DNA of 64,000 bases from Hyaloperonospora brassicae (lineage: Eukaryota; Oomycota; Peronosporomycetes; Peronosporales; Peronosporaceae). The notes beneath the pieces were generated by a model. It saw nothing but the letters and a program-made list of their open reading frames with translations. It was not told the origin of the DNA and searched no databases. The translations under genes and the position numbers were made by a program. The stretch lies in the NCBI GenBank assembly GCA_947650285.1, contig CANTFL010000094.1, positions 62,001 to 126,000 of the forward strand, given 5' to 3'. Of this stretch, positions 1-44,799 are shown piece after piece (position 1 is the first letter of the stretch; every line of letters begins with the position of its first letter).

Positions 1-323
1 TGGGTGCTCGACTTATTGGCTGACGTATACGGTACATCAACCAAGTTAACCACCAATCGCTTCTGGTCGCGCGCAAGGAGTGGTGAGCAAGAATCCTAAA
101 TAGGAGATTGTAGTTTAATATATCTAGACCAAGACAAAAGATAATTTACAAAGAAACTTTTCTATATTGAATAAAGTTCTTTTTTCTCTAACAGAGCTTC
201 CGAGCTCTGTTTACTTCCTCGCGCTTCCTCACGACATAAGTACGTGACGTCGGGACCACGCAGGCTTGTATTATGTTAACACAAGGTCTTACCAGTTATC
301 TGGCATGGGTAAGCCCCGCTACA
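1..323 (+). repeat. Gypsy A1 5' LTR, truncated and decayed
   Basis: The stretch ends in GCCCCGCTACA at 323. It is followed by CCTAATAGCACTGTG, which aligns with the post-LTR primer-binding stretch of A2 (CCTGGTAGCACTTTG). Upstream blocks such as the GCGCGCAAGGAGTGGTGA stretch near 70 and the GACGTCGGGACCA stretch near 247 match the gypsy A LTR. The sequence is far more diverged than the 3' LTR of the same element, and most of its stem-loops are lost. Confidence 0.75.
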
Positions 324-379
324 CCTAATAGCACTGTGTGGTCCGTTAAGCGATCACGACCACCTCATATGACATAAAC

Positions 380-1500
380 ATGTTAGATGAAACGAAATTT
401 TCACGCCACTCGTGAAGACTTTAACCATTTAAATGACATTCAATGAAGTCCGGTAGAACGTACGAGTTAAACCGTAGGCGAAACTGCCATTAGCGCCATG
501 TTGGAGTCTATTGATAGAGACTAGCAACATGCCGATATATACAGGTTCATTCAATCTGAACATGTCGCCTTTAGAGTGAAAGTAGACTTGTTTTACTAGC
601 AAATTTATTAACAGGCCGAGCAATTATAGAGAACTCGGTGCTCAACAGACAGAGCTGTTGAGTCAGAAGCAATTCAATGCTGCTATGGGTGGGACGACAC
701 AAACGCGTCGTCCTGAAACCCTAAAGATACCAAACTCCAATTACAGGGGATTCGAGGAAGATTCCCTGTTTTTATGGTTCGTCGAACTCGACAGAGTTAA
801 ATACGCACGTCGTATTGAAGTTGAGAAAATTAAACTTACATTTATTCAAACCCACTTTGCGGTACGTTCCTAGCCTTGGACCATAGGGCTGAAGATGAGA
901 GACCCAAATGCGTTTTAGTTGCTAGAAGCCTTTAACACCCGGCTTATACAAACGCTTAAATCGCCACAGGCTGAGTTCAGGGCTCGATAAGAGCTCGTGA
1001 ATCTCAAACAAGGTACGCGTGATGTGTACGCACGCGCTCAGCATATACGACTCCTTGCGAGTAGTATAACTGCAAACCCGGTAAATGAACATACGTTGAT
1101 TACTGTGTTCATGCAAGGGGCTCGCAGAAGGATCCGTCAGGAACCACCTGTAACGCTTATAGTTTAATATGCTTGACGAATCTATCTCATCTGCCGAGCA
1201 GAAAGACTATAGCATGAGACAGGCTCATGCTAGCTCGAGCTTGTATCACCCGCCAAGACGACAAGAGACTAGACTTTTAGAGCTAATGGACCTCTTTTCT
1301 ATTGAGAGCAAGAGACGTCTCTCTTCAAACAACAAGCGATTGAAGAAGTGCAATCGCTGCCAGAAGTTGGGACAATACGCTTATGATTGTAGTGCGTCAA
1401 GCCCAGTACGAGACACTACTGAGCAAAATAATCGGTTCTTTGCCAAAAATGGCAATGAGCGTAAGTCCAACGCTGTTGCAAAACCGCAACAGCTAAGCTG
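380..1500 (+). pseudogene. gag pseudogene of gypsy A1
   Basis: Starts with ATG TTA GAT GAA, matching the MLDEEDT start of the intact A2 gag, and is colinear with it to the end. It is broken into several frames; the longest pieces are 658-873 and 1169-1501. The C-terminal zinc knuckle survives as CNRCQKLGQYAYDC, with the His of the CX2CX4HX4C pattern replaced by Gln. Gag would form the capsid and bind RNA; this copy cannot. Confidence 0.85.
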
Positions 1501-2174: not shown

Positions 2175-5051
2175 TTGCAAACGCTAGAACCGAAACGTTT
2201 CTTGCGTGATCTGCGTAGTGGCAAAGTCAAGCAGATCTGCATACTCGTCACAGAGGATGAGTATGTGGCCGATATTCGGTCGGCAACAGTATTTGCTGAG
2301 AACGAACGGGTTCTCAGCAGCTCATCGATGGACGAAAGCGTCCTCGATGAGAAGACTCGGATTAAACGATACACGTCTCAATCCTGGGAGTCACTTCAGG
2401 CAAATCCTTTGTATAAGGATTTGATCGAATTCAGGGATGTGTTCCCTGAATCCGTACCTTGCGAGTTGCCTAAGGGCAAAGGCACTCGACACGAGATCGA
2501 GCTCAAACCGGGCTCGAAGTACTGTGTCATGAAGCAGTGGCCACTGCCTCGTGAACTAGTACTAGCGATCGACAAGTTCTTTGCCGATCGCTTAGCAGCG
2601 GGTCATGTGAGGGAATCAACATCCCCTCACAGCTCTCCGACCTTCTGTGTGCGAAAGGCCACAGGAGGGTGGCGGATAGTGCACGCATTCAACAAGTTGA
2701 ATGCTTCAACGGTACCGGCTCAGACGCCGATACCGAGGAAGGACGTAATCATAGATGGTATGTCAAAGAGTACCATCTTTTCGTCCATGGATCTGATGGA
2801 TGGATTCTATCAGATCCTGATGCGTGAACGGGACGTCCCGTTCACGGCAGTGAGTACCCCCAGCGGGATGCTGTGGGAGTGGCTAGTGATGCCACAGGGG
2901 CTGAGTAATGCCCCTGCAACATTCAACAGATGTGTCACAAATCTGTTGAGACCGGTGCGAGACTTCGCACCGAGTTACTTCGACGATGTGTTCGTCCATA
3001 GCCGGGCTATGGACGGAAAGACGGACGTTGAAGTACACAGAACTTACGTTCGTCAGGTTCTTCAACTCATGCGCAAGCATAAGTTGTACGCCAACCTCAA
3101 GAAGTGCATATTCGCGGCTAGCGAGATACCACTTCTTGGGTGCATCGTGGGTAAACACGGCGTACGCCCTGATCCCGAAAAGATCAAGGCGATCACCGAC
3201 TGGCCAGTGCCAGTCGATGTCAAGGTGCTTCGTAAGCTCCTTGGGCTAGCGGCGTACTTACACAAGTACTCGCGCAACTACGCCGAGATGACTGTTCATC
3301 TTTCTTGCTTGCTCAAGGAAAATGTCAAGTGGTCATGGAACGCTGAGTGCCAGCGTTCCTTTGAAGGTATCAAGCAAAGCTTGATGCAGTCGCCGATCTT
3401 GGCGATTGCAGATCAGGACAGACCATTTCAGGTGGTCTGTGACGCCAGCGATTTCGCAATCGGCTGTGCGTTAATGCAGTTCGATGCAGATGGCTCGGAG
3501 CGCGTCATTTGGTATCAGTCGCGTCAGCTGCAAGCAGCTGAGCGCAAATACCCAGTGCATGACAAGGAACTCCTTGCCATGAAATACGCACTGGCTAAGT
3601 TTCGCGTCTATCTCTTGGGAGATAGACCGTTTGTTGTCTACACGGACCATGCGTCATTACGCACGGCCGTAAACAGCCCACACCTCTCGCAAAGGATGGC
3701 GAGGTCGCTGTCTTTCTTCGCGGAGTATAACTTCTCCGTGGAGTATAAACCAGGACGACTCAATGTCGTCGCTGATGCGCTTTCGCGCCAGCCCGATTTC
3801 GAGCCGGACGCACAATTCAACAGTGAGGATAAGCCCACTGTTGCGACACTGTCAGTCAGTGTCCCGCCGTCAAGTTTACTTGACGACGTACGAAAGGCAT
3901 ACGCAGAAGATAAGGATCTTCTGCGATTAATGGATCATCTGGTGAATCAATCCAGTAAATCCATGAGGGATTTACCGGCTTTGTATCGATCCTCATCGGA
4001 TCGGTATAGTACACGCAACGGATTGTTATATTATACAGCTGTTGCCGGCGATACGCCTCGTGTCGTCGTACCCACTCATCATGATTTGCGATTGCGCATC
4101 ATGTATGAGTGTCACGATGCCCCAACAGGTGGCCATCGTAGTAGAGAAAAGACTTACCTCACGGTAAGTCGCGACTTTTACTGGCCCCGCCAGTATCAGT
4201 TTGTTCGCAAGTACATACGTGCTTGCGAGGTTTGTCAACGGGTGAAGCCTAGTCCTTCATCCCGTGCGCCATTGCAGCCTCTGCCTGTTCCGACAGAGTG
4301 CTGGCAGTCCGTTTCAATGGACTTCGTCTTCGGGTTTCCCAAAGACGCTCACAAGAATAATGGTATTCTTGTGTTTGTTGACCGATTCAGCAAGATGGTG
4401 CATCTTGCTGCTGTCCCTGAGTCAATCAAGGCTCAAGGTTGTGCTCGTGTCTTTCTAGACACGGTCTTTAGACTCCACGGGTTACCCCGTGAACTCGTAT
4501 CCGACCGTGACCCTCGGTTCACGGCGGAATTTTGGCAAACCGTGTTCCGTTCTCTCGGAACACGATTGAAGATGTCTACTTCTGACCATCCCGAAACAGA
4601 TGGTCAGACGGAACGTGCGAACCGTGTCCTCGAAGAGATCCTTCGAGGATATGTCCACTCCTTTTCGAGTTGGAGCGAATTCCTACCCATGGTGGAATTC
4701 GCCATCAATAATTCGGTGCATGCTTCAACACAGCACACACCGTTTTACGTGAATGGCCTACGCCATCCACGTGTGCCCACCCTTCTAGAGTGTGACTCTT
4801 GGATAAGGGGGGAGGGACTCGCTCGAGCAAAAACCGTTTTGGCTCTTGCTCATCACGTGTCGACGCAAACGTCGTCACGTATGATGCCGATGTCGATCAG
4901 GTCTACATCGATGAAGAAGACCACCTCAATAATAGCGACGCTGCTATTATTGACTCGGATGATGATGACGATGCTGGTATATCCAGCATCGTCAACGATT
5001 ATTCCAGCGAGGAAGAAGACAACCTCGCTGAAGAAGAGAACAATCTCTTAG
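2175..5051 (+). CDS. pol: Gypsy A1 pol: reverse transcriptase, RNase H, integrase
   Basis: Long open frame that copies element RNA to DNA and integrates it. In order: RT (KATGGWRIVHAFNKLN about 2656-2704, DLMDGFYQ, SYFDDVFVHS with the catalytic YFDD at 2976-2987), RNase H (VVCDASDFAIGCALMQF about 3434; TDHAS about 3640), integrase zinc finger (GGHRSREKTYL to CEVCQRVK, about 4129-4250) and DDE core (MDFVFGFP about 4318, SDRDPRF about 4500, TDGQTERAN about 4600). The upstream in-frame TAG at about 2172 is CAG in A2, so this start is created by a nonsense mutation and is not a true initiation site. From about 4805 the frame is wrong because the G-run has six Gs where A2 has seven, so the last ~80 residues are spurious. 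Protein identity with A2 is very high, about 97% by eye. Confidence 0.93.
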   Translation: MQTLEPKRFLRDLRSGKVKQICILVTEDEYVADIRSATVFAENERVLSSSSMDESVLDEKTRIKRYTSQSWESLQANPLYKDLIEFRDVFPESVPCELPKGKGTRHEIELKPGSKYCVMKQWPLPRELVLAIDKFFADRLAAGHVRESTSPHSSPTFCVRKATGGWRIVHAFNKLNASTVPAQTPIPRKDVIIDGMSKSTIFSSMDLMDGFYQILMRERDVPFTAVSTPSGMLWEWLVMPQGLSNAPATFNRCVTNLLRPVRDFAPSYFDDVFVHSRAMDGKTDVEVHRTYVRQVLQLMRKHKLYANLKKCIFAASEIPLLGCIVGKHGVRPDPEKIKAITDWPVPVDVKVLRKLLGLAAYLHKYSRNYAEMTVHLSCLLKENVKWSWNAECQRSFEGIKQSLMQSPILAIADQDRPFQVVCDASDFAIGCALMQFDADGSERVIWYQSRQLQAAERKYPVHDKELLAMKYALAKFRVYLLGDRPFVVYTDHASLRTAVNSPHLSQRMARSLSFFAEYNFSVEYKPGRLNVVADALSRQPDFEPDAQFNSEDKPTVATLSVSVPPSSLLDDVRKAYAEDKDLLRLMDHLVNQSSKSMRDLPALYRSSSDRYSTRNGLLYYTAVAGDTPRVVVPTHHDLRLRIMYECHDAPTGGHRSREKTYLTVSRDFYWPRQYQFVRKYIRACEVCQRVKPSPSSRAPLQPLPVPTECWQSVSMDFVFGFPKDAHKNNGILVFVDRFSKMVHLAAVPESIKAQGCARVFLDTVFRLHGLPRELVSDRDPRFTAEFWQTVFRSLGTRLKMSTSDHPETDGQTERANRVLEEILRGYVHSFSSWSEFLPMVEFAINNSVHASTQHTPFYVNGLRHPRVPTLLECDSWIRGEGLARAKTVLALAHHVSTQTSSRMMPMSIRSTSMKKTTSIIATLLLLTRMMMTMLVYPASSTIIPARKKTTSLKKRTIS

Positions 5052-7143: not shown

Positions 7144-7536
7144 TGTAACGGGGCAGCCCGTTACATGGAATTGTCACTTTAAAGAAAGTATGACAATAGA
7201 GAATATTAAGCTGAATATTCTTTGAACAATATCACCGATAGTGGTGATATTTGTGAAGCGACCAAAGGGTCTGCTCATTGGTTGATATCTTGATGATATC
7301 AACCCACCCTTTGCCGCAGGACGCGCGCAATGAGTGGTGACGAGACGTCACCATAAACTCAGTTATATTAACCTAATTAAGTCAGGTTAAACAAAGAGAC
7401 AGTAACAAAAGACTTAATTATATCAATACAACAGTTTTACTTTTCCCTTATCTACGCTTCCTCGTTTGCCTCGTTTACGTCTGTCGGGGCACCAAAACCC
7501 TCGCGTTAAGTTCACGCAAGGGTGTGCCTCGTTACA
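7144..7536 (+). repeat. Gypsy A1 3' LTR (393 bp)
   Basis: Begins TGTAACGGGG and ends GCCTCGTTACA. The same inverted ends and internal blocks occur in the A2 LTRs (388 bp) and in the solo LTR at 16521-16960. It contains a chain of short hairpins, for example GGTTGATATC 7280-7289 with GATATCAACC 7295-7304. Loops differ between copies while most stems persist. Confidence 0.92.
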
Positions 7537-16520: not shown

Positions 16521-16960
16521 TGTAACGGGGTAGCCCGTTACATGAAATTGTCGTTCAGAACAATCTGACATTAAAGAATATTACGTCGAATATTCTTTTA
16601 ACAATATCACAGACATGGTGATATTGCTGAGATGACCGAAGGGTCTACTCATTGGTTGATATCGTGATGATATCAACCCATCAATCGCTGCTAGACGCGC
16701 GCAATGGGTGGTGAGTAGACGTCATCATACATTAAGTTATATTAGTATAATCAAGTCAGGACAACAGAGATTCAAGGAGTTATAGGACTTAATTATGTTA
16801 ATACAGATTTACTTTTACCAAGAGACTAGTCCGGCTAATTAGTTTCCTTTCCTTCCTCTGTGTTCCTTAAATACCTAACAGGGCACTGTCGACCACTGTC
16901 GTCATTGGAAGTATACTCCGTACTGGTCAACCATTACGTAGTCAAGAGTGCCCCGTTACA
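16521..16960 (+). repeat. Solo gypsy A LTR (440 bp)
   Basis: Begins TGTAACGGGGTAGCCC and ends GTGCCCCGTTACA, with internal blocks of the gypsy A LTR in order. Flanking pentamers GATTG (16516-16520) and GGTTG (16961-16965) match at four of five positions, as expected for an aged target duplication. No internal region is attached on either side, so the element was lost by LTR-LTR recombination. The stem GGTTGATATC 16654-16663 with GATATCAACC 16669-16678 is intact. Confidence 0.88.
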
Positions 16961-30219: not shown

Positions 30220-31752
30220 CGGTAATATAGGGGTGGGGGCTGGTGAACGATCACCTGGGGGGTGGTCAACGTTTCCCTACTTTCATGAATTATGCACGTC
30301 CCAACTCATTTTTGAGACTTGACAAATTTGAAGGCCACAATTGACTTTCGCAAATAATCAACAAGGTCCATCGGATTAAATCAGCATCGCCTCCAATGGC
30401 ACGTCCGTGGCTCGGAGCATCAATGTATGAGATGCTGCGTCAATCATACGTATGACTGCCGAGTAGACTCTCTACAACTGCGGATGCTGTGTTCGGTACG
30501 CAATCTGGACGAAATGGTGGCAGTACTTCTTTTTGCTGTACGATATCAAATGCATCCGAATAAACTGAGCATCGACTGGCGCAGGGTAATGCTAGGTGTG
30601 CCAAGTACGCTTACCATGATCGTAATTTACCGTTTAGACTTATAAGTAAGCTATGAATGAGCTATTGGAATGTAGGACAGGCGTCGCTGTCAAATCCGTG
30701 TGCACAATGACTAGAGGGTGCTACAATTTACATGATCAGCTCTCCGTTGCATTCTTGATGCCAAGCAACTTGATATGCAATATCAAGAATGAAATACTGA
30801 AACAACAGTCAAGTTAATCACCAAGAAGACAGCAGCTTCCGTTTGTGTTGACCCCCTGCCGTTGGTAGAATCGAAACGTTTGCTGAGCGGATCATCAAAT
30901 GAGTGTCGGAACGTCTGGCTGGGAGGTCCCATTCGGGCCCCAGACGTCAGTACTGCGCGTAGGTGCGACGATTGCCACTCAATGCGTAGTGCATGTGTAT
31001 AAATCTACACATATTCGTTTCTCGGAGCACGTTACTCTACCGTAGTACATGTATGATGTAGTTGCAAAGGATAGGCAGATCTTGACACTTCACATAAATA
31101 ACGCCACGACTTCAAATACAAAAGTTTAGCTGCAACGAAATGTCACTAACTAGTATATAGAATTCACCTGCGCACTATATTGCGGCAGCAAAGTGTTGTG
31201 CATCAGATGAGTAGCTTCCGATACGCTTCAAATGACACGCAACACTTGCAGTCATGAATGTTGCAATATCTTGTGCTAGCGTGACTGACGTGGTCAATAG
31301 ACGAAGAGCAGTACTCAACCATTTTGTTTGTCGATAGCTAAGTGCAGCGACGACTCGCTAGAAATAGTATCTCATAGCTATAATGCACCGATAAGAACAA
31401 GCGACATCCCTTCATCGCCGCGGTCCACTACGATCTCATTAAGTATCGAAAAGCGGCAATAATGGAAACGCTGCCGAAGAAAAGTCCTTGACAGCAGGTG
31501 TTGAGACTATAACTGTCTTGTTAAGCTTCACACCCAGTGTTCCAACGCCTTTTCTCTGCTCCAAAAGACAGGCAAAGTGCATCAGCGCGGCAGCTACATT
31601 CCAAGTAAGTGACTTGAAAGGCACGAGGCGTGTTGAGTCGGTGGCTCTACTCACCTGAGTCACGGAGACCTGGACAATAGCTTGCCGAGAGCTTCATAGC
31701 GTAGTGATGGCTCCTCTCGTGTATAAAGTCTCATCTGCGCTGGTGGCCCAAA

Positions 31753-32140
31753 TGTAACGGGGCACACCCTTGCGTAACTTAACGCAAGGGATTTGGGTGC
31801 CCCGACGGACGTACACGTGGCGAGCGAGGAAGCGTAGGTAGGGTAAAAGTAGAACTGTTATATCAATAAATTAAGTCTTTAAACTACTGTCTCTTCGTTT
31901 GACTTAATTCAATTATACTAATATAACTGCATGTATGGTGACGTCTCGTCACCACTCATTGCGCGCGTCTTGCGGCGATTGGTGGGTTGATATCATCACG
32001 ATATCAACCAATGAACAGACCCTTTGGTCGACCTGTCAATATCACCACTTTGGTGATATTGTTTAAAGAATATCCATCTTATATTCTTTATTGTCACTTT
32101 CCTTAAGTGACAATATCATGTAACGGGCTGCCCCGTTACA
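31753..32140 (-). repeat. Gypsy A2 3' LTR (388 bp)
   Basis: TGTAACGGGG to CCCCGTTACA on the given strand. Compared with 39340-39727 I find a single C/T difference, near 31864. It contains at least seven perfect short hairpins, for example CCCTTGCGT/ACGCAAGGG and AATATCACCA/TGGTGATATT. Confidence 0.97.
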
Positions 32141-32152
32141 TCACCCCCCTTA
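32141..32152 (-). other. Polypurine tract of gypsy A2
   Basis: Reads AAGGGGGGTGA on the minus strand, immediately before the 3' LTR. It is one base different from the tract of A1. Confidence 0.75.
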
Positions 32153-32269
32153 ACTGATAGTCACCGTGTGACTATCGAAATATGGAGGCCACCCGTTGGC
32201 CACCATTGGGACAGGGAGCACTTGTTTGGTCCGTTCCACTCACTTTCCGCTTGACCTCGCATAGTTAAC

Positions 32270-33733
32270 ATGTCTATGCGAGGTGACTCAAGACCCACAC
32301 AGCCTGGTGCTGTGCAAGCCTCTGCGGCAGACGCTTCTTCGTCTGCCGCCCCTTCTTCGCCTGCAGCAACAGGTGCTGCAGGTGCACGCGGTATCACGCC
32401 GCGTGCGCACGATGACCCCGATGTGGAGGTCATCTACTCTGGCGAGTCAGACGTGTCTGACTCGGGCAATGATCCAGAGGCGTCTCGCTCACCGGCGACG
32501 CCTCAGTATTCGCCAAGGCCACTGCCGAACGAACGGACTCGTGATTCGCATCACAGTCTGTTCGGCAGTGATGACGATGATCAGGGTGGTGAGTTCTATT
32601 CTTCACCACCGCCGGCTCGTGCGTCTTCGCACGAGCGTGATGACGATGGCGCGAGCCGTCGTCAATCTGGGATCCGTGGTACCGACAAGGGTACCACTGT
32701 GAAGCGTGATGAGTTGAAGCCGTGGTGTTTGCCCGAACAACTCATCAATAGCCTGTCTCACGAGACAGGCCAACACCATCGAATACCCTTATTCGATGAA
32801 ACCGAGCTTCACGGCTTGAGTCCCAGCGCGAAGAGCTTTCGCGCTGAAGAAGATTTTTATCTCGATGTCTTCCTTAGACATCGATGGTACAATAGCAACC
32901 AAAAGCGTGACAAAACATCGCTTTTGGCTGCGTGGAACGCGTTCGTCCAAAACGTAAAGAATTTTGGACGAGAAGGGTGGCTCAAGAAACTTGAGGCAAC
33001 ACGCCTCAGGTTCGAACGGCGAACGCCAACCGGTGCTAGGTACCGGTTGCATTGTTTATCGAGTGAGGCAGGCATTCCTTGCCTCACATGGGGAGACCCT
33101 TGTGCGAGTTGTGTTGACAACTCGCAGCGTGCACATAGGGATGTGTACTCCCTAAATTCGCCCTGGGGAAGGGCACATCTCTCGGAGGAGATGCGTGACG
33201 CGATTGCAAACTTGCAATCCGTCTACAAGCGCCTAGGGCGCGTGTTTACCGATGGGCCACAGGACTCATCGGATGGGTCTCGTCATACTGGCGGACGAGA
33301 CCTTCAACATCCATCAACAGCTGAGAGCGGGGCTCCCAGCTGTTCCAAGAGGGTGGATACCCCCGCCACTGGACGAGGTAGCTCGTCCTTGATCCTGAAT
33401 CGTCACGGTGATTCAAGATACGCTCCACTAGAAAGCGTTGATCACCGTGAGCATCCACCAAAGGATGTGGTGGAGGAGGAAAGACCTCCTCCAGAACCCC
33501 AGGCCCACCATCTCGACCCTTACGAGATGGATCGCGCAATCGATGAATTGCGCGATGACTTGAAGCACGAGCGCGACCGACGCTACGCTTTGACCGACAC
33601 CGTGCGGAAGAACCGCAAGGATCACGAGGCTGATTGGGCGAGGGATCGCGCCGATTATGCCACGGCGCAGCTTCAGGTCGAGCGGGATGTCCGCTCCTTT
33701 TCGGCGAGCTGGCGACAGCTCGCGGAGAGATAA
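32270..33733 (+). CDS. Antisense protein of gypsy A2 (487 aa)
   Basis: Open frame on the strand opposite to gag-pol, starting 129 bp inside the 3' LTR. Order of features: Ala/Ser/Pro-rich N-terminus (1-45), acidic stretch ([16 protein letters not shown], about 50-66), a central conserved-looking part ([32 protein letters not shown], about 170-290) with a cysteine cluster [14 protein letters not shown], the [19 protein letters not shown] block, and a charged helical C-terminus ([19 protein letters not shown]) predicted to be coiled coil. Its last ~160 codons overlap the chromodomain of pol in antisense. A1 has a broken orthologue at the same place and gypsy B a diverged one. Function is unknown; plant Grande/RIRE2-type elements also carry antisense extra ORFs here. 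It is probably expressed from a promoter in or near the 3' LTR, which is inference. Confidence 0.8.
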
Positions 33734-33797
33734 CTCGGTTGAATACCGAGGTATCATATCTGCGCGACCAGACGGATCGTCTGGAGCGCGAACGCAA
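33246..33797 (-). CDS. Chromodomain frame of gypsy A2
   Basis: Chromodomain [33 protein letters not shown] at about 33285-33435 on the minus strand, ending at 33246. It is preceded by an Arg/Ser/Pro-rich linker. It is one base out of phase with the preceding integrase frame exactly as in A1. The domain would direct integration to methylated histone H3 chromatin. Confidence 0.85.
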
Positions 33798-35035
33798 GAA
33801 CTTGATGGATGTTCTTGAACGTGGGGGCTATCTTCATCGAAAGAAGAAGGCTCGTACTGACAGTACGGCCTGAGCCTCCCCACGTAAAACGTAGGATGCG
33901 TGCGCATCTTACGTGGCAATTCGAGTGTGTATGCATTGCCCTTGCGATGCAACACTCGAAATGGCCCAATGTATTTCGGCAGTAGTTTACTACTGCCGAC
34001 ACTAGTGACTGCATGTCCAGGTAGGTTTACCGTTGACAGTAGTACTAGGTCATTAACCTTAAATGAAAGAACATTTGCTCTTCCATTCTTGTCTGCGTTC
34101 CGTTTCTGACGGTCCACCGCATTTGCGATGGAGTCATGAACGAAACGGACTACCGCTTCTCGAGTCAGCAGGAAGTTCTCTGCTGACTTGTTGTTTTGTC
34201 TTTCAGTGCGCTTCGTGCGCACTGCTAAGAGATTGTTCTCTTCTTCAGCGAGGTTGTCTTCTTCCTCGCTGGCATAATCGTTGACGATGCTGGATATACC
34301 AGCATCGTCATCATCATCCGAGTCAATAATAGCAGCGTCGCTATTATTGAGGTGGTCTTCTTCATCGATGTAGACCTGATCGACATCGGCATCATACGTG
34401 ACGACGTTTGCGTCGACACGTGATGAGCAAGAGCCAAAACGGTTTTTGCTCGAGCGAGTCCCTCCCCCCCTTATCCAAGAGTCACACTCTAGAAGGGTGG
34501 GCACACGTGGATGGCGTAGGCCATTCACGTAAAACGGTGTGTGCTGTGTTGAAGCATGCACCGAATTATTGATGGCGAATTCCACCATGGGTAGGAATTC
34601 GCTCCAACTCGAAAAGGAGTGGACATATCCTCGAAGGATCTCTTCGAGGACACGGTTCGCACGTTCCGTCTGACCATCTGTTTCGGGATGGTCAGAAGTG
34701 GACATCTTCAATCGTGTTCCGAGAGTACGGAACACGGTTTGCCAAAATTCCGCCGTGAACCGAGGGTCACGGTCGGATACGAGTTCACGGGGTAACCCGT
34801 GGAGTCTAAAGACCGTGTCTAGAAAGACACGAGCACAACCTTGAGCCTTGATTGACTCAGGGACAGCAGCAAGATGGACCATCTTGCTGAATCGGTCCAC
34901 AAACACAAGAATACCATTATTCTTGTGAGCGTCTTCGGGAAACCCGAAGACGAAGTCCATTGAAACGGACTGCCAGCACTCTGTCGGAACAGGCAGAGGC
35001 TGCAATGGCGCACGGGATGAAGGACTAGGCTTCAC
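33428..35035 (-). CDS. pol: Gypsy A2 integrase core, acidic linker and GPY/F
   Basis: Integrase DDE core (MDFVFGFPED, SDRDPRFTAEFW, HPETDGQTERAN; about 34660-34965), then an acidic segment (IIDSDDDDDAGI, SEEEDNLAEEENN; about 34245-34335), a basic stretch, and the GPY/F motif YIGPFRVLHRKGN (about 33935-33975). The ATG at 35035 is internal: the zinc-finger end CEVCQRV is encoded just upstream in the same frame, so translation would come from the upstream pol frame if the frameshift near 35090 were absent. Open throughout, unlike A1. Confidence 0.92.
   Translation of the reverse strand: MKPSPSSRAPLQPLPVPTECWQSVSMDFVFGFPEDAHKNNGILVFVDRFSKMVHLAAVPESIKAQGCARVFLDTVFRLHGLPRELVSDRDPRFTAEFWQTVFRTLGTRLKMSTSDHPETDGQTERANRVLEEILRGYVHSFSSWSEFLPMVEFAINNSVHASTQHTPFYVNGLRHPRVPTLLECDSWIRGGGTRSSKNRFGSCSSRVDANVVTYDADVDQVYIDEEDHLNNSDAAIIDSDDDDDAGISSIVNDYASEEEDNLAEEENNLLAVRTKRTERQNNKSAENFLLTREAVVRFVHDSIANAVDRQKRNADKNGRANVLSFKVNDLVLLSTVNLPGHAVTSVGSSKLLPKYIGPFRVLHRKGNAYTLELPRKMRTHPTFYVGRLRPYCQYEPSSFDEDSPHVQEHPSSSCVRAPDDPSGRADMIPRYSTELSLRELSPARRKGADIPLDLKLRRGIIGAIPRPISLVILAVLPHGVGQSVASVALVLQVIAQFIDCAIHLVRVEMVGLGFWRRSFLLHHILWWMLTVINAF
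33634..33873 (+). other. Coiled-coil extension frame after the antisense gene
   Basis: Adjacent frame that overlaps the end of the antisense gene and runs on with [18 protein letters not shown] and [18 protein letters not shown], a heptad-like coiled coil, to a stop at 33873. It is one base out of phase with the 487-aa frame. The same base offset also separates pol from the chromodomain on the other strand. Confidence 0.5.
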
Positions 35036-35096
35036 CCGTTGACATACTTCGCAAGCACGTATGTACTTGCGAACAAACTGATACTGGCGGGGCCTG

Positions 35097-36749
35097 TTAA
35101 AAGTCGCGACTTACCGTGAGGTAAGTCTTTTCTCTACCACGATGGCCGCTTCTTGGGGCATCGTGACACTCATACATGATGCGCAAACGCAAATCATGAT
35201 GAGCGGGTACGACGACACGCCTCGTGTCGTCGGCAACAGCTGTATAGTACAGCAATCCGTTGCGTGTACTATACCGATCCGATGAGGATCGGTACAAAGC
35301 CGGTAAATCCCTCATGGATTTACTGGATGGATTCACCAGATGATCCATCAATCGCAGAAGATCCTTATCTTCCGCGTATGCCTTTCGTACGTCGTCAAGT
35401 AAACTTGACGACGGGACACTGACTGACAGTGTCGCAACAGTGGGCTTGTCCTCACTGTTGGATTGCGCGTCCGGCTCGAAATCGGGCCGGCGCGAAAGAG
35501 CATCCGCGACGACATTGAGTCGTCCCGGTTTATACTCCACGGAGAAGTTATACTCCGCGAAGAAAGACAGCCACCTCGCCATTCTTTGCGAGAGGTGTGG
35601 GCTGTTTACGGCCGTGCGTAATGACGCATGGTCCGTGTAGACAACAAACGGTCTATCTCCCAGGAGATAGACGCGAAACTTAGCCAGTGCGTATTTCATG
35701 GCAAGGAGTTCCTTGTCATGCACTGGGTAATTACGCTCAGCTGCTTGCAGCTGACGCGACTGATAACAGATGACGCGCTCCGCGCCATCTGCATCGAACT
35801 GCATTAACGCACAGCCGATTGCGAAATCGCTGGCGTCACAGACCACATGAAATGGTCTGTCCTGATCTGCAATCGCCAAGATCGGCGATTGCATCAAGCT
35901 TTGCTTGATACCTTCAAAGGAACGCTGGCACTCAGCGTTCCATGACCACTTGACATTTTTCTTGAGCAAGCAAGAAAGATGTACCGTCATCTCGGCGTAG
36001 TTGCGCGAGTACTTGTGCAAGTACGCCGCAAGACCAAGGAACTTTCGAAGTCCCTTGACATCGACTGGCACTGGCCAGTCGGTGATCGCCTTGATCTTTT
36101 CGGGATCAGGGCGTACGCCGTGTTTCCCCACGATGCACCCAAGAAGTGGTATTTCGCTAGCCGCGAATATACACTTCTTGAGGTTGGCGTACAACTTATG
36201 CTTGCGCATAAGTTGAAGAACCTGACGAACGTGAGTTCTGTGAACTTCAACGTCCGTCTTCCCGTCCATAGCCCGGCTATGGACGAACACATCGTCGAAG
36301 TAACTCGGTGCGAAGTTTCGCACCGGTCTCAACAGATTTGTTACACATCTGTTGAATGTTGCAGGGGCATTACTCAGCCCCTGTGGCATCACTAGCCACT
36401 CCCACAGCATCCCGCTGGGGGTACTCACTGCTGTGAACGGGACGTCCCGTTCACGCATCAGGATCTGATAGAATCCATCCATCAGATCCATGGACGAAAA
36501 GATGGTACTCTTTGACATACCATCTATGATTACGTCCTTCCTCGGTATCGGCGTCTGAGCCGGTACCGTTGCAGCATTCAACTTGTTGAATGCGTGCACT
36601 ATCCGCCACCCTCCTGTGGCCTTTCGCACACAGAAGGTCGGAGAGCTGTGAGGGGATGTTGATTCCATCACATGGCCCGCTGCTAAGCGATCGGCAAAGA
36701 ACTTGTCGATCGCTATCACTTGTTCACGAGGCAGTGGCCACTGCTTCAT
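35097..36749 (-). CDS. pol: Gypsy A2 reverse transcriptase and RNase H
   Basis: RT with KATGGWRIVHAFNKLN, SMDLMDGFYQILM, MPQGLSNAPATFNR and catalytic YFDD (36302-36291). RNase H follows with DASDFAIGCALMQF and YTDHAS, and then the start of the integrase zinc finger (HRGREKTYLTVSRDF). The first Met lies after a premature stop at 36787-36789 and is not the natural start; the frame is continuous with 36789-38090 except for that codon. The 3' end is a frameshift, one base more than A1 in the DFYWP segment. It is about 97% identical to A1 at the protein level by eye. Confidence 0.93.
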   Translation of the reverse strand: MKQWPLPREQVIAIDKFFADRLAAGHVMESTSPHSSPTFCVRKATGGWRIVHAFNKLNAATVPAQTPIPRKDVIIDGMSKSTIFSSMDLMDGFYQILMRERDVPFTAVSTPSGMLWEWLVMPQGLSNAPATFNRCVTNLLRPVRNFAPSYFDDVFVHSRAMDGKTDVEVHRTHVRQVLQLMRKHKLYANLKKCIFAASEIPLLGCIVGKHGVRPDPEKIKAITDWPVPVDVKGLRKFLGLAAYLHKYSRNYAEMTVHLSCLLKKNVKWSWNAECQRSFEGIKQSLMQSPILAIADQDRPFHVVCDASDFAIGCALMQFDADGAERVICYQSRQLQAAERNYPVHDKELLAMKYALAKFRVYLLGDRPFVVYTDHASLRTAVNSPHLSQRMARWLSFFAEYNFSVEYKPGRLNVVADALSRRPDFEPDAQSNSEDKPTVATLSVSVPSSSLLDDVRKAYAEDKDLLRLMDHLVNPSSKSMRDLPALYRSSSDRYSTRNGLLYYTAVADDTRRVVVPAHHDLRLRIMYECHDAPRSGHRGREKTYLTVSRDF

Positions 36750-36788
36750 GACACAGTATTTCGAGCCCGGTTTGAGCTCGATCTCGTG

Positions 36789-38090
36789 TCAAGTGCCTTT
36801 GTCCTTAGGCAACTCGCAAGGTACGGATTCAGGGAACACATCCCTGAATTCGATCAAATCCTTATACAAAGGATTTGCCTGAAGTGACTCCCAGGATTGG
36901 GACGCGTATCGCTCAATCCGAGTCTTCTCATCGAGGACACTTTCGTCCATCGATGAGCTGCTGAGAACCCGTTCGTTCTCAGCAAATACTGTTGCCGACC
37001 GAATGTCGGTCACATACTCGTCCTCTGTGACGAGTACGCAGATCTGCTTGACTTTGCCACTACGCAGATCACGCAAGAACCGTTTCGGTTCTAGCGTTGG
37101 CAACTGAGTTATCTCCGAAGTCAACTTCGGAGGCACAATCAGATCAAGCGTATAAGCGCCTACGCTTGATCCGTCATTAACCAAGACGTTCAACGTCTCG
37201 GTTTCTTCCTGGGATCTTGCTTCCACAGGTTGCTGAGGGCCTGATCCCTCAGCAAGCAACTCTTGAGGAACTCCTTCCTCAAGTACGTGGGGACTTATTC
37301 CCTCGACGTCTTCCGACTGTGGCTGTGCAACCACAGTCAGGAACCGATCCTCTACGGTCGACTCTCCAGTCGACCTAGGATTTTCATGTTGCCCCTTGGG
37401 GGCAACAGATTTCTTTCTTCTAAGATGCTGCCCGCTAGGCATGCATCCATGTCCCGGTCCACTCGACTTATTCGAGTGGTGGACCTTCGGCGCAGCCTGT
37501 ACTTCTGTACAGCCGCCGGGAGCTTGCTCCACAGTGTAGTGATCAACTACACTGTGACCTTGTGCAGTCGTGCTAACGACCGTACCGCAAGTGAGGCCAT
37601 CGCACTCACTCGCAGAACATCCACACGCTTGTGGACGCTCCAAGATGTTCATCAGATGGCCATCTGATGAACAAGCAGCAGGCATCTTCACGGATCGATG
37701 CTGCCAGCTCACCCTTGGCTCGTATTTTCTGAGCCAAGGTAATCCCAGGATGACATCAAATTTGTCATCCAGATCTAGTACGATGAAATCATCATCGTAC
37801 TGCTCGCCCTCTAACGTGTAGTGGATTCCTACTACACGTTTCTCAACGGTTATCGATGCGCCTGTTGCAAGGCGCACCGTCATTCTTGTGAGGGGAATGT
37901 CGCGCTCAACGAACTTGAGCCTACGACCCTCTAGTGACTGGCGACGAACAAAGCTGTTCGACGCCCCACAGTCTACTAGGGCACGAAGCGACAAGTCATT
38001 TGTCGCTTCCAACTTCAAGGTGATGAGCGAAACGTCATCACCAGGTGCAGAGACACACAATGATTGTGTATCTGGAGCAACTTTCATCAA
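36789..38090 (-). CDS. Gypsy A2 protease and pro-RT linker
   Basis: N-terminal aspartic-protease-like domain with ALVDCGASNSFV (about residues 36-47) and DVILGLPWL (about 110-118), followed by a long linker to the RT start (LIEFRDVFPESVPCELP). The active-site triplet is DCG instead of DS/TG. The frame is ended by TGA at 36789 where A1 has CGA. It is in a different frame from gag, which ends at 38141, so gag and pol are separate frames here. A1 lacks about 400 bp of this region. Confidence 0.88.
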   Translation of the reverse strand: MMKVAPDTQSLCVSAPGDDVSLITLKLEATNDLSLRALVDCGASNSFVRRQSLEGRRLKFVERDIPLTRMTVRLATGASITVEKRVVGIHYTLEGEQYDDDFIVLDLDDKFDVILGLPWLRKYEPRVSWQHRSVKMPAACSSDGHLMNILERPQACGCSASECDGLTCGTVVSTTAQGHSVVDHYTVEQAPGGCTEVQAAPKVHHSNKSSGPGHGCMPSGQHLRRKKSVAPKGQHENPRSTGESTVEDRFLTVVAQPQSEDVEGISPHVLEEGVPQELLAEGSGPQQPVEARSQEETETLNVLVNDGSSVGAYTLDLIVPPKLTSEITQLPTLEPKRFLRDLRSGKVKQICVLVTEDEYVTDIRSATVFAENERVLSSSSMDESVLDEKTRIERYASQSWESLQANPLYKDLIEFRDVFPESVPCELPKDKGT

Positions 38091-38140
38091 GAGGTTTGCA
38101 AATTCTCTTGAGGTTGCTGGATCAGTAGGGCGCTCCGCCC

Positions 38141-39295
38141 CTACTGACCCCGACCATTTTTTGATGGCCCGTCTCGCTGTTGCGGCTTCGCAACAGCGCT
38201 GGACCCACGCCCATTGCCCTTTCTGGCGAATGGTCGTCCATTTCGCTCAGTACTGTTTGGTACTGGGCGCGGAGCACTACACTCGTATGCGTAGTGCCCT
38301 AACTTCTGACAGCGATTGCACCTCTGCAATCGCTTGTTGCTTGTAGAGCGAGGTCTCTCGCTCTCAACATAACAGAGGTCCATTGGTTCTGGACCTCCGA
38401 TCTCTTGTCGTCTCGGTGGACGGTAAGAGTTTGAGCTAGCATGAGCCTGTCTCATGCTAAAGTCTTCCTGTTCCGCGGCTGATATCGCTTCTTCAAGCGT
38501 ATTCAGCTCAAGGCGGAACAGGTGGCTCCTGACGGGCCCTTCTGCGAGCCCTTGCATGAACACCGTAATCAACGTGTGTTCATGAACTGGGTTTGCAGTT
38601 ATACTACTCGCAAGGAGTCGTATATGTTGTGCGTAAGCGTGCACATCACGCTTACCCTGCTTGAGTTTCAGGAGCTCTGAACGAGCCCTGAACTCAGCAC
38701 GTGGCGGCTCAAACGTTTGTCTGAGCCGGGACTTGAAGTCATCTAGCGACCTAAACACATTTGGGTCGCTACTCTCGAGTCCCAGGGACCAAGTTTTGGC
38801 ACGCCCTGCCAAGTGGGTCTGAGCAAATGTGAGTTTCATTTGCTCATCTTCGACGCGACGAGCGCTTAAGGCTCTGTCGAGTTCGACAAACCATAGTAAC
38901 AGGGAGTCCTCCGGGACTCCACTGTACTTGGAGATGTCGACTTTCATCACTTCGGGACGACGCGCATTCGCCGTCCCGCCCACAGCAGCATGGAATTGCT
39001 GCTGTCTCAACAGCTCCGTCTGTTGAGCACCGAGTTCTCTCAACTGCTCGGCCTGTTGAGAGCCTTGCTGGTGAAGCAAGGCTACTTTCTCCCTCTCGAG
39101 AGCAAGTTCATTGTGAATGAACTTGGCGATAGCAGCATGTTGTTGGTCTCTGTCTAGAGACTCCAACATGGTGCTGACGACGAGTTCGCCTACGGTAGAA
39201 CTCATTCGTTCTACCGCACCCCATTCGATGTCACTCAAATGGGTAAACCCTTCACGCGTGGCGTGAAAGGTGTCTTCTTCATCCAACATGTTCAT
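38141..39295 (-). CDS. gag: Gypsy A2 gag (384 aa)
   Basis: Intact capsid/nucleocapsid polyprotein. N-terminal helical, Gln-rich part (HQQGSQQAEQLRELG), capsid-like core (KYSGVPEDSLLLWFVELDRA, FAQTHLAGRAKTW, FRARSELLKLKQG), and a C-terminal zinc knuckle CNRCQKLGHYAYEC (CX2CX4HX4C, about residues 325-340) that binds RNA. The start chosen is the first Met, 45 bp after the LTR; a second Met two codons later matches the A1 start. Confidence 0.93.
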   Translation of the reverse strand: MNMLDEEDTFHATREGFTHLSDIEWGAVERMSSTVGELVVSTMLESLDRDQQHAAIAKFIHNELALEREKVALLHQQGSQQAEQLRELGAQQTELLRQQQFHAAVGGTANARRPEVMKVDISKYSGVPEDSLLLWFVELDRALSARRVEDEQMKLTFAQTHLAGRAKTWSLGLESSDPNVFRSLDDFKSRLRQTFEPPRAEFRARSELLKLKQGKRDVHAYAQHIRLLASSITANPVHEHTLITVFMQGLAEGPVRSHLFRLELNTLEEAISAAEQEDFSMRQAHASSNSYRPPRRQEIGGPEPMDLCYVESERPRSTSNKRLQRCNRCQKLGHYAYECSAPRPVPNSTERNGRPFARKGNGRGSSAVAKPQQRDGPSKNGRGQ

Positions 39296-39319
39296 GTTGG
39301 ATGATGTGGTCCTTGGAAG

Positions 39320-39339
39320 GACTACAAAGTGCTACCAGG
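39320..39339 (-). other. Primer-binding region of gypsy A2
   Basis: Directly after the 5' LTR, the minus strand reads CCTGGTAGCACTTTG. TGGTAGCA is complementary to the 3' end of an initiator-methionine-type tRNA, two bases after the LTR. The tRNA identity is inferred from the short match. Confidence 0.6.
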
Positions 39340-39727
39340 TGTAACGGGGCACACCCTTGCGTAACTTAACGCAAGGGATTTGGGTGCCCCGACGGACGTA
39401 CACGTGGCGAGCGAGGAAGCGTAGGTAGGGTAAAAGTAGAACTGTTATATTAATAAATTAAGTCTTTAAACTACTGTCTCTTCGTTTGACTTAATTCAAT
39501 TATACTAATATAACTGCATGTATGGTGACGTCTCGTCACCACTCATTGCGCGCGTCTTGCGGCGATTGGTGGGTTGATATCATCACGATATCAACCAATG
39601 AACAGACCCTTTGGTCGACCTGTCAATATCACCACTTTGGTGATATTGTTTAAAGAATATCCATCTTATATTCTTTATTGTCACTTTCCTTAAGTGACAA
39701 TATCATGTAACGGGCTGCCCCGTTACA
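39340..39727 (-). repeat. Gypsy A2 5' LTR (388 bp)
   Basis: One base different from 31753-32140. It lies upstream of gag on the minus strand and is followed on the outside by the target duplicate CCAAA. Confidence 0.97.
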
Positions 39728-40639
39728 CCAAACGCCTCGTCCCGGCAAGGTCGGGAAGTTTAACAGTGCGTCACTGGGACCATAACATTTTAAATTCTTA
39801 CCTGGGGAATATACAATTTCGTTCTACGAGGAACTTGAGGTTTATAAAGGTTTTGGACTAAGCGCCTTGTGATGTCAGTGCAGGTTACATCGATATTACG
39901 TCGATGTACGCACCGCTGCCACGAGTAGCCGTAGATTGAGTAACGGATCATCGATGGAACGATCCCTTAGTGAGAATCGCAATGCGAGTGCAATATAGCT
40001 GCAACGGGAGCGTGCAGGCCGTGTGACTCACTGCACAGACGAAGAGTTAATTATACTGAGCGTGTGAAGGATCACAGCGCTGGCAATTAGAGCAAAAATT
40101 TGGCCGATTGGCACGTCTTATATTTTCTCTACATTTGCTATAATAGGCAGTGCATCACCGAAACTGTCAAAAATTACGCCATTAGGTCCCATCATGCGTA
40201 CTTCTGTGATTGACTTGAATGACCACGTTCCTTCAAATCGTAGAGCCACTGGATGCGGCTAACAGCTGCAACGTGATATTTCTCAACTTCTTTGCAAGAA
40301 CATTGCACCTGTTCTGCATCCTTTCTTGAATCTGCGCTGATCGAGCACAGTGGTAGCCTTTACTGATATCGGAAAGCTACGGGCATATTGCTCAACAAGC
40401 GTGTGAAAGCGCTCGAGACGGGACAGATGCTGCAGATGTGACCAAGCCGAAGCTCGCTAATTCATTGAACAAATTAAATTCAGCAGGACTTTTAGTCGGT
40501 GGTTGATGAGATTAGTCCGTTTCGTGTAGTTCAAACTAAAATTGGGTCAATGAGAAATCGTCTTAAAATTATATTCTCCAATATGTACCTCGCAAGCCTA
40601 ATATTATAGGAGTGTAAACTGCATTGGGTAATATCGACA

Positions 40640-40890
40640 CCTCTCTACTTACTGGTTAGTGCCACTGAATCTGGGGCCGGGAGGAGTACCTGGATCGATA
40701 CCCACGGGGGGCGGGTACGGTTACAGGCGCCGGAGATAGACAAACATATTAGACGAGCAAACAGCCAATGGGTGACCGCCCTACCAACCCGCACCTTAGG
40801 TATGTATTACTTTGGGTCGGATGGAAGCCCTACTGGCCTCAAAGTCCCACAGTGGAATACGGGGTGAGGGCCCTCTAAGAAATTATAACA
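40640..40890 (+). repeat. SINE-like GC-rich unit, right arm copy
   Basis: Mirror copy of 26840-27070: TACTGGTTAGTGC at 40650-40662 and the B-box GGATCGATACC at 40692-40702. It was present before the arm duplication. Confidence 0.4.
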
Positions 40891-41868
40891 GTGTCACAAT
40901 ACTCGTAGCCCACACCGGGGTGATCTGAAGGACTACGCCGCGTAAAATCGTACTTCTTAGTGCAGTCCATCATATCAAGTAACTTAGCCATTAATCGCTG
41001 CTAGACACGCAACAATTGGCGTTCAACGAAATAATAATTTGGAGTTTGCAGTTGATCCATTTGACTAGATGAAAATGTGCTATAGGAGATTCGACTGCAT
41101 TGAACACAATTATAGTCTTACCTTTCTATGTATGCGTCCGTATAGAAGATAGGCCTTCCTCTGCACATGCCGTGGACGTAGGGTTGCGAGGCACGTTCCG
41201 TCACTATTTCAGTGTAGGCGGCTTGTTCTGTGCGGTTATAAGCGCAGAGTGCCCCGTTTAAATGGCAGCACTTTGTGATCTGTCCAACGACTACGTAATT
41301 TTCATCCAACACGAAGAAAACAGGATCGCTTTCATGCCAAGCGTAAAGTATTTGCGCGTTTGAGTTACATCAAATGGGCCATCCGGTTTGCTATAAAAGG
41401 CGATAAGTACATGCCGCAATACCAAGTTCTTCCAGCATAAATTTGACGCGTAGAGTTATACGGTAACCTTTTTTACCATTAAGGTGCTCCACAGTCAGAG
41501 CTTTTAAGTGAATAGGATATCCAACACTTTGAAATGTTGAGTCAGCAGTAATGTTAGACTGCACCTAGCGGGTCAACGCACGCACGTTGATCTGAAAGCG
41601 TCGTAAAAAATATCTTCGATTACCACAAATAACCTCTTTTGATATGTCATATCGATTTGAAAGCCACCAACGAGACCTTAAGATCTTAAATAAAGATATA
41701 TTTTTGAAAACTCAAGAAAATGTATCTCCGGTTACTAGGAAGATAATCAAATGGGATTCCATATCAATTCGAATGCCACCATAAAGATCTTCGCATCCTC
41801 GATATATATAATTGCTTCGTTTGCTTTGACAAAATCGACCGAGCATAGCAATATAACTTAGGTCCTAA

Positions 41869-42403
41869 TGTAACGGGGTTACACGTCGACTGGTAGTCGA
41901 CAATAGGTGTGGTACAGAAAAGGGATGGGATCCCCTTAAAAGTAATATTCGAACACAAGTATCAATTGTTGAAGACTGATGTCTGTCAACCACTGATTAC
42001 GAGATCTTTTAATGGGTTTATTTAGAACATAAGTGAGTGGGTTAATTACTTTGTTCTACGGTGTTCTTTTAGGTTAGAAAAAGAAATAAAATTCAGTTCC
42101 CATTTTGATCAGCAAAAGACACGTGACTCTCTGAGGCGTCTTGCGATCGTAAGGAAGTAGCAACTCCTTGTTAAGGCAGCTACTCCTTGTGCACTCAGTG
42201 AGTTTGATTCTCTGAATCATTTGGTCCCCCCTGGAACAGGGACCGTGAGCTCTCTGAGCTTGTTGACTCTTTGAGTCGGGTTCTTTGAACCAACCCTTAG
42301 CTCTCGGAGCTGTTGACCCTTTGAGTCGGGTTCGTAGAACCAAAGTTGCTCGTAAGAGCGTTAAGTCTTCCTCTGACTTAAGGTGTTGTGTAGCTCCTAT
42401 ACA
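41869..42403 (+). repeat. Gypsy B 5' LTR (535 bp)
   Basis: TGTAACGGGGTTACACG to CTCCTATACA. It contains many small hairpins (GTCGACtggtaGTCGAC, GATTCtctGAATC, GGTTCtttGAACC) and two tandem ~52 bp units built on TTTGAGTCGGGTTC. A short stretch after it, AGGTAGCACTTGTTGG, resembles the primer-binding site of gypsy A. The small open frame inside (42343-42074) recurs in all three LTR copies and is not a gene. Confidence 0.93.
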
Positions 42404-42463
42404 TTAGGTAGCACTTGTTGGTCAGTCTACACATGAGTCGGTAACGACTGATCCTCTGTTAGG

Positions 42464-42907
42464 ATGGAGCAATTCACACCCCTCTCTGAGGCCCAAAAGG
42501 TCGCGCTAGATAATCTGACCGCGGCCGTAGGCCCTGAGTATGTGCAGTTTCTAGCTGCACAAGGTCCCGATGTGCTCAATGCACAAGTCGAGACCTTCAT
42601 GAAGTATGAAACGCCCCTTTTAGGGCAGGTTCAAAAACAAGAAGTGTCGGCTATGCCAACACGCTACGTGGCGATGCCAGACAAAGAGTCTAAGCCTCGT
42701 CCCCTTCGAGTGGACGTTAAACATTACTCCGGAAAGGAGAGGGTAAACCTGACCCTCTGGATCCGTGAGATTAAGATGGCCATGAACTCTAGCCTTATCT
42801 CACTGGAGTATCAGCGGGTCTTACTAATCATCTCCAAGCTCGATGGAAGAGCTAGAGAGTGGGCTCTGACGTGTGGCACGTCGGTAGACTTGGCGTTTAC
42901 CACATGA
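42464..42907 (+). pseudogene. gag of gypsy B, N-terminal and capsid part
   Basis: Frame from MEQFTPLSEAQK through a capsid-like block (VDVKHYSGKERVNLTLWIRE, KLDGRAREWAL) that parallels the gypsy A gag core (KYSGVPEDSLLLWFVE, LAGRAKTW). Ends at a TGA at 42907; the zinc-knuckle part continues in another frame. Confidence 0.85.
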
Positions 42908-43092
42908 GATTCGCTCAAGTTAGACCTATTGCGAGTTTCTCGCCGCCTAACCAGGCTTATCGCGTACGCTCTTGCCTCTTGTCTACCCGTCAAGGTAAGA
43001 ATGAGTTAACGGACTGTGTCCAATAAGTGAGAACTCTGATGGCTACTATGCAGTCTGGCCCTCTCCGTGAGACAGTCTAGGTAACATGATTT

Positions 43093-43458
43093 ATGAAAGG
43101 TCTTCTCACTGGCGTTTCCAAGACCAAGGTCTTTAGGGTCCATCCCTCTACTTATGAAGAGGATGTGAGCAACTCTCAGAATGCGGAGCATAACTATAAA
43201 TCAGCAAGACTTGGTTGGAATGGGTACAACCCAAGCTATGCGAGGGCAACCTCAGCAAATAGCTCAGCTTACTGGAAGCCTGAATTGATATATCTTAGCC
43301 ATGCTAAAGATGAAGGTGAAGCGGATCTTCCGTTTGCAGAGCAACGACAGGAAGTGAGACGATGTTATATATGCGGAAGCACTAAACACTTGCGTCCCTA
43401 TTGTCCTTTGCGTAAACAGCGACTGAACCCTATGGGTCGCAACCCCATCCCCAACTAG
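43093..43458 (+). pseudogene. gag of gypsy B, zinc-knuckle part
   Basis: Second gag fragment with CYICGSTKHLRPYC, an intact CX2CX4HX4C knuckle at about 43363-43404. Separated from the first part by frameshifts. Confidence 0.85.
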
Positions 43459-43617
43459 AAACCGGGTATGGCACGGGAAAACGTCGACACCCAGTGAGCG
43501 CGGGTGCCCTATTGGGGTAGAATTAAGTTCAGTCACTACTATACGAGGTATAGTGAAACAGAGCTTAGCCCCACTGAGCTCTGAGCCCGCCAGCACAGAG
43601 CGTGGATACCAGCCAGG

Positions 43618-44309: not shown

Positions 44310-44799
44310 CAGCCAGAGTGTTCAGGGCGAGACCCGGATGCTGTACGTGAAGTGGTACGTGTAAATTCACTGGGTAAAAAGTTTGATTTTACGTAACACT
44401 TCACCAGATGTCATTCAAGACATGAGCTCTCGTATAGAGAGTGCTAAGATAAACAGCAACCAAGGTGACCCTTCTGTCCCGGTATCTAGGAGGCGTAAGG
44501 TTTCTTTGAGTAAACAATTTCAGCATTGGGTGGCAACTGTTAAGCGCCTCACGTAAGAAACGTCACTTGGTAAAATAGTAATGATACACTATACACACTT
44601 GTTAATAAAGTAACTGGTCATGTTAATGGTAACATACGTCTCGCAACTCTTCCGTCCAAAGACGCTCTCTTCGAACTCGACGAAATATCTGACAGCGGAT
44701 TAAGCCAAGCCTTACAGGCAGGAGAATCATCCGAGTTAGTGGTCATTCGGCCTGACATTGAGCTGAACTCATCCTCGCTTTTCAAAGAGTCTGTCCTTG

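Follow-up and report, generated by a model that had tools for sequence, protein, structure and literature searches.

Pervasive internal base pairing is best described for RNA viruses, in which genome-scale ordered RNA structure (GORS) is given in PMC7642675 as a folding excess of 7.5–17.5% for structured viruses, with 23.4% as the highest value recorded among vertebrate RNA viruses and a peak above 50% in a single gene. Hairpins can also be created and maintained by template switching, as set out in PMC8794818, and in the oomycete Phytophthora infestans small RNAs of both orientations are described along two Gypsy elements (PMC3522703). Here we analysed a stretch of 64,000 nucleotides of Hyaloperonospora brassicae (GenBank assembly GCA_947650285.1, contig CANTFL010000094.1, positions 62,001 to 126,000 of the forward strand; hereafter the window), which carries two copies, A1 and A2, of a Ty3/gypsy retrotransposon family designated A. 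The pol frame of A1 holds an excess of short perfect hairpins that is real and far beyond chance. As explanation we favour, with a probability of roughly 0.4, selection for hairpins of a generic kind on both strands; these would keep transcripts and small RNAs folded and would hinder silencing.

The six pol stems named in the initial annotation are all present, base for base (6/6). Its estimates of density were about twice too high: counted as perfect, non-overlapping stems of at least 6 bp with loops of at most 15 nt, positions 2500–4790 contain 42 stems, which is one per 55 bases and not one every 25–35, and positions 4140–4790 contain 13 instead of about 18. The proposal that codon choice is bent toward stems is borne out, since stem counts far exceed those of synonymous-codon shuffles, of which 200 per open reading frame (ORF) formed the null for all coding frames. 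ORF 2175–5051 has 57 stems of at least 6 bp (mean of the shuffles 11.6, maximum 23), 32 of at least 8 bp (mean 1.08, maximum 5) and 9 of at least 10 bp (mean 0.12, maximum 1), an excess over synonymous shuffles with z of about 30. For stems of at least 9 bp the enrichment is more than 60-fold in the family A sequence L007. Nearly all of the excess sits at loops of 0–15 nt, with a small residue at 16–30 nt; inverted 9-mers at least 16 nt apart are not enriched, nor are near direct repeats. Chance or composition as the cause is ruled out by the synonymous and dinucleotide shuffles, and long-range inverted repeats or direct repeats are ruled out because neither is in excess.

The stem pattern had been noted for pol, where it is indeed present, and it extends beyond this region into gag, the long terminal repeats (LTRs) and the 3' region (Table 1). 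In A2 the gag, protease, reverse transcriptase (RT) and integrase frames and an antisense ORF each lie above all 200 shuffles, and the LTRs, the 5' gag region and the 3' region are likewise enriched. Positions 31748–39634 contain 130 non-overlapping hairpins (at least 7 bp, loop at most 15 nt), which cover 38.8% of the bases, the stems alone accounting for 29.1%. Stem-rich DNA in the window consists only of the two A copies (about 1–7.5 kb and 31.7–39.7 kb) together with a solo LTR near 16.5 kb. The A2 frames match Pfam models for Gag, protease, RT, RNase H and integrase in Ty3/gypsy order. Among named proteins the closest belong to Peronospora and Phytophthora, and further ones to Globisporangium and Aphanomyces; no relatives were confirmed in viral contigs and prokaryote genomes, and Rfam models at gathering scores gave 0 matches over the whole window. 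From the assembly (100.56 Mb, 898 contigs), 52 near-full matches were scored among 8458 first-look candidates, which are unverified. A1 itself may combine parts of different lineages in a chimera, because its 5' LTR-like start (window 1–350) gives a poor alignment to the 3' LTR of the same copy and its first kilobase (window 1–1000) is stem-poor.

Table 1. Elements and features of family A in the window (stem counts are for stems of at least 8 bp, observed vs mean of synonymous-codon shuffles)
Feature	Position	Strand	Remarks
A1 pol open frame (RT, RNase H, integrase)	2175..5051	+	stem-rich; includes 2500–4790
A1 3' LTR	7144..7536	+	TGTAACGGGG...CGTTACA; most stems common to A2 and solo LTR, loops diverged
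Solo A-type LTR, diverged	16521–16819 (hairpins 16521..16678)	+	four stems largely kept in A2/A1, loops changed
A2, complete gypsy copy	31753..39727	-	388-bp LTRs (1 difference); 5-bp target duplication TTTGG
A2 3' LTR	31753..32140	-	
Antisense ORF, 492 aa, opposite gag-pol	32255..33733	+	25 vs 0.95
A2 integrase frame with Tf2-1-like SH3 domain	33428..35110	-	18 vs 0.57
A2 RT and RNase H frame	35097..36788	-	22 vs 0.62
A2 protease frame (RVP_2)	36789..38246	-	23 vs 0.68
A2 gag frame (Retrotrans_gag PF03732)	38141..39331	-	16 vs 0.54
A2 5' LTR	39340..39727	-	

A comparison with copia had also been suggested, and the copia-like ORF at 60976–62952 is at background (0 stems of at least 8 bp vs 0.9 in shuffles). 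To the extent that the conditions named there as refuting were covered, they do not refute the claim of a special density in gypsy A. Six copia RT segments, pooled, gave 0 vs 0.77 at 8 bp or more and 10 vs 13.8 at 6 bp or more. The other tested stretches of the window, which stand in for host protein-coding genes as control, are near background for stems of at least 8 bp (0 vs 1.4, 6 vs 3.5 and, at 40–64 kb, 7 vs 7.2), the solo LTR near 16.5 kb excepted; a mild excess occurs at 40–64 kb for stems of at least 6 bp (148 vs 93) and at 7.6–16 kb for stems of 6–7 bp. In family E, a more remote gypsy family (L078, 30% identical to A), no excess is seen either (2 vs 3.3 at 6 bp or more). A property of the whole genome or of all retroelements was rejected, as neither the seven copia pieces nor family E show the pattern.

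Hairpins of at least 8 bp are abundant in family B (L061; 17 vs 0.80 in shuffles), family C (L062; 12 vs 0.81) and family D (L067; 3 vs 0.10), where B and D, like F below, are each represented by one piece. Family C was measured on L062, to which L063, L064 and L068 are 97–99% identical, and L065 and L066 are candidate members; five more C-like pieces are lower, yet above their shuffles (2–6 vs 0.3–0.7). Family F (L079, 1.2 kb, 69% identity to A) lacks stems of at least 7 bp, and with stems of at least 5 bp it has 26 hairpins of 12–15 nt span where 2.9 are expected. Hairpins of 18–25 nt span are in deficit in F (1 vs 6.7 expected); its 5–6 bp hairpins of sharply defined span make up a size class unlike that of A to C. 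The outer span is about 20–27 nt in A, 18–23 nt in B, 18–25 nt in C and 12–15 nt in F, and stem length correlates negatively with loop length (rho -0.22 in A, -0.63 in B, -0.67 in C). The family B protein (L061 and its copies) is 89–96% identical over its parts to the Peronospora matthiolae protein P0098; for a retrotransposon this likeness is seemingly close, and it may reflect close host kinship or horizontal transfer.

The helices are Watson–Crick and strand-symmetric. The predicted folding excess of A2, computed on 350-nt pieces against dinucleotide shuffles, is 46.7% for the sense and 47.1% for the antisense strand, compared to 7.7% in the control at 40001–48000, and G–U pairs make up 5.9% of the predicted pairs in A2 vs 12.1% in the window control. 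Relative to codon shuffles the excess is 46% and 52% in family A, 14% and 16% in family B, and 34% and 36% in the antisense ORF. When families A, B, C and F are represented by a single sequence apiece, 67 stems contain exactly one G.T and 85 exactly one A.C (p = 0.17). The pairs flanking stems are G.T or A.C in 20 vs 23 cases in A1 and 26 vs 20 in A2, and there is no preference for G.T at stem ends or inside stems. The base composition of stems and loops is near that of the remaining sequence.

These data bear on ordinary selection acting on the sense genomic RNA only, for packaging, stability or the control of nucleases or RT, as in structured RNA viruses. Such selection would be in agreement with the very high folding excess of the sense RNA, with the poor conservation of stem positions that PMC7642675 also gives for GORS, and with several subfamily comparisons in which broken pairs lean to G.T. 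However, it should tolerate G.U wobble, which inside stems is not found above A.C (67 vs 85), and the antisense strand is folded equally. Both points speak against it, and we consider this explanation improbable.

Strand symmetry and the missing preference for G.U would rather suit a role at the DNA level, in which hairpins of the single-stranded cDNA, or cruciforms, would function in packaging, strand transfer, protein binding or chromatin and the binding partner sets their size. The family-specific span and the negative correlation of stem and loop length would follow from such a partner, and the surplus of A.C over G.T, although not significant, has the direction expected for the cDNA minus strand. 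On the other side, cruciform extrusion of 7–12 bp stems is energetically unlikely, and no sequence-specific partner is apparent, because stems and loops differ little in composition from the remaining sequence (no motif search was made). A DNA-level role therefore appears unlikely to us, if less so than selection on sense RNA only.

Stems are conserved within family A, and their positions turn over between A and B or C. With arms crossing alignment gaps left out, 4 of 45 comparable stems are kept between A and B, which share 59% amino-acid identity (null 0.55), and 2 of 44 between A and C (null 0.75). A position-conserved functional structure is thus unsupported between A and B. Comparisons of subfamilies within A used six sequences. 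Between L007 and L032 the differences amount to 50/822 sites in stems, 41/283 in loops and 170/1661 in spacers, and at four-fold degenerate sites to 14/127 (11%), 11/28 (39%) and 57/258 (22%), respectively; the comparison with L043 gave 8/92, 4/22 and 38/186 four-fold sites. The LTRs show the same order, with a divergence of 1–11% in stems, 25–36% in loops and 16–27% in spacers. Paired changes between L007 and L032 affect 7 of 411 pairs, and 34 of the 411 are broken.

The main rival to selection is template switching during reverse transcription. Here the RT of the element, often switching over a short distance so that one arm is copied from its partner, would make and repair hairpins that bring no benefit, and their size would reflect the enzyme. 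The turnover of stem positions fits a copying process of this kind, as do perfect, strand-symmetric Watson–Crick stems of family-specific span, and their occurrence in only one gypsy clade among the tested pieces fits a process specific to one enzyme; the ability of template switching to make or keep hairpins is published (PMC8794818). However, repair predicts paired changes in the LTRs near the neutral rate. In six LTR comparisons we found 0–1 double changes and 1–18 broken pairs among 38–58 pairs each, with loops that differ by 25–36%. Moreover, none of the 51 pol loops that differ in three overlapping comparisons is nearer to its inverted form. Several gained stems are changed in both arms (judged by eye and uncounted), which we list among the contrary points, and some clean paired changes occur. 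Of the rivals this is the one to which we give most credence, while still regarding it as unlikely.

Variants among the copies of family A allow selection and mutation to be weighed. The copies were picked by search score and not at random, and sparse alignment columns with few letters were left out of the counts. The 37 young sequences used were drawn from 60 that represent 58 distinct places (L042 lies within L004 and L050 within L003, and the 37 include none of the four). Variants present in at least three of them occur per site at 0.003 in stems, 0.029 in loops and 0.023 in spacers, those in exactly two at 0.006, 0.009 and 0.012, and single variants at 0.052, 0.072 and 0.069; the contrast of shared vs single variants is significant (Fisher p = 7e-6). 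In a set of 30 sequences that includes A1, synonymous variants found in at least two sequences account for 10 of 923 possible changes in stems vs 67 of 1880 outside stems (p = 7e-5). The private mutations of six old copies are near-uniform, their rate in stems being 0.85 of that elsewhere, and in groups with fewer private changes this ratio is 0.81 and 0.74.

The same data speak to the view that stems are merely sheltered from mutation in the replication cycle and accumulate passively. Loops outpace spacers at four-fold sites when the stems of L032 are compared with L007 (15/29 vs 57/270, p = 0.0008), and in the sequences L002–L030 single variants are fewer in stems, as sheltering would predict. 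The near-uniform private mutations of the old copies (0.85) oppose it, and the more than 60-fold enrichment in L007 is larger than the 2- to 10-fold differences in rate that we observed. We hold sheltering to be very improbable.

The antisense ORF at 32255–33733 is, judged from its sequence, a conserved accessory gene of the gypsy clade. It has eleven matches among database proteins, at 83% identity in one case and at 36–51% in the other ten, several of them partial, and no Pfam model matches above cut-off. A conserved central region is common to the database relatives. In its C-terminal 297 residues, variants found in at least 2 of 30 sequences comprise 22 synonymous and 17 non-synonymous changes and 1 stop, compared to a ratio of about 1:3 under random change (p = 4e-5); this is supportive only, because the region is also under hairpin constraint. 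The initial annotation had suggested that hairpins would suit an element expressing both strands. Its structural part holds, as the pairing is strand-symmetric and the conserved antisense ORF fits, while the antisense gene renders expression from both strands plausible.

We return to the favoured reading, in which selection acts on both strands for hairpins of a generic kind. A gypsy clade would have been filled with short perfect hairpins via synonymous and non-coding changes, as selection probably favours any local self-complementarity on either strand. The presence of a hairpin would count, and neither its position nor its sequence. Transcripts of both orientations, and the small RNAs cut from them, would then most likely stay self-folded, which may hinder both silencing by base pairing and the annealing of sense to antisense RNA. 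Small RNAs occur in both orientations along two Gypsy elements of P. infestans (PMC3522703), and strand-symmetric self-folding would hinder RNAs of this kind from pairing. A bolder form of this idea, which we consider doubtful, is a palindrome code: a free-floating layer of perfect hairpins over all genes and on both strands, of a size set per family and kept by selection, that would confer sequence-independent immunity to base-pairing defence and would have escalated from 5–6 bp in family F to 8–11 bp in family A.

Several observations weigh against the reading that we favour. The copia pieces tested carry no hairpins, despite similar silencing being expected for them. The gaps between the hairpins of A2 fit an exponential distribution (Kolmogorov–Smirnov p = 0.39) and are compatible with random placement, so that even spacing is unsupported and the hairpins form neither an even shield nor the near-continuous train described before. 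Double changes show no excess between A and B (23 vs 25.8 in the null), nor between B and C (76% identity), where 6/23 and 8/16 stems persist (null 0.2–0.3). In several comparisons of A subfamilies broken pairs tend toward G.T (e.g. 7 vs 4 and 6 vs 2), and the folding-energy excess of family C (5.7% and 9.4%) is scarcely above that of copia (4.7% and 7.3%). Residues encoded by stem codons are slightly less conserved than those of spacers (0.628 vs 0.699, p = 0.036), and loops do not exceed spacers at four-fold sites in the comparison with L043 (4/22 vs 38/186), unlike in that with L032. Among the 29 sequences L002–L030 the contrast of shared and single variants is not significant (p = 0.089), with single variants at 0.014 in stems, 0.042 in loops and 0.023 in spacers, and where private changes number fewer than 15 (40 sequences), the ratio for stems is 0.74. 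Fewer single variants in the stems of L002–L030 and the ratio of 0.74 would both agree with stems mutating less during the replication cycle. The tests for selection cover family A only. Since the evidence from variants is conflicting, we hold it likely, not proven, that selection maintains the stems in family A.

The many copies offer a natural system in which selection for structure at synonymous sites is measurable, and the hairpins yield a testable proposal on the resistance of transposons to RNA silencing. Elements of this type may also distort rates estimated from codons and predictions of small RNAs. Within the titles and abstract openings searched, which left most subscription journals outside their scope, we found no earlier description of such hairpins.

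Compared to the described systems, family A is in its parts an oomycete Ty3/gypsy element, with Gag, protease, RT, RNase H, integrase, LTRs and a 5-bp target duplication and with its nearest proteins in Peronospora, Phytophthora and other oomycetes; it differs by hairpin saturation and a conserved antisense gene. With the template-switch hairpins of PMC8794818 it shares perfect DNA hairpins and, possibly, the repair of pairing. That account concerns RNA genes, whereas in family A 29% of an 8-kb element lies in stems, and the LTR stems rarely show paired changes. The likeness to GORS, as presented in PMC7642675, lies in a genome-wide folding excess arising from very many stem-loops, in positions and pairs that are poorly conserved between relatives, and in the proposal, made there too, that RNA is shielded from recognition. 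The excess of A2 is 47%, compared to 7.5–17.5% (top value 23.4%), with steps of shuffling and fragmentation that differ between the studies. It is equal on both strands, poor in G–U and made of discrete short perfect hairpins of family-specific size, and a tolerance of G–U above A.C, which we would expect for structure of the genomic strand, is not seen in the stems. GORS belongs to the genomes of persistent positive-strand RNA viruses, whereas A2 is an integrated LTR retrotransposon. Pervasive structure, known from RNA viruses, is thus found here in a retrotransposon, in strand-symmetric form and at about twice the highest value quoted there.

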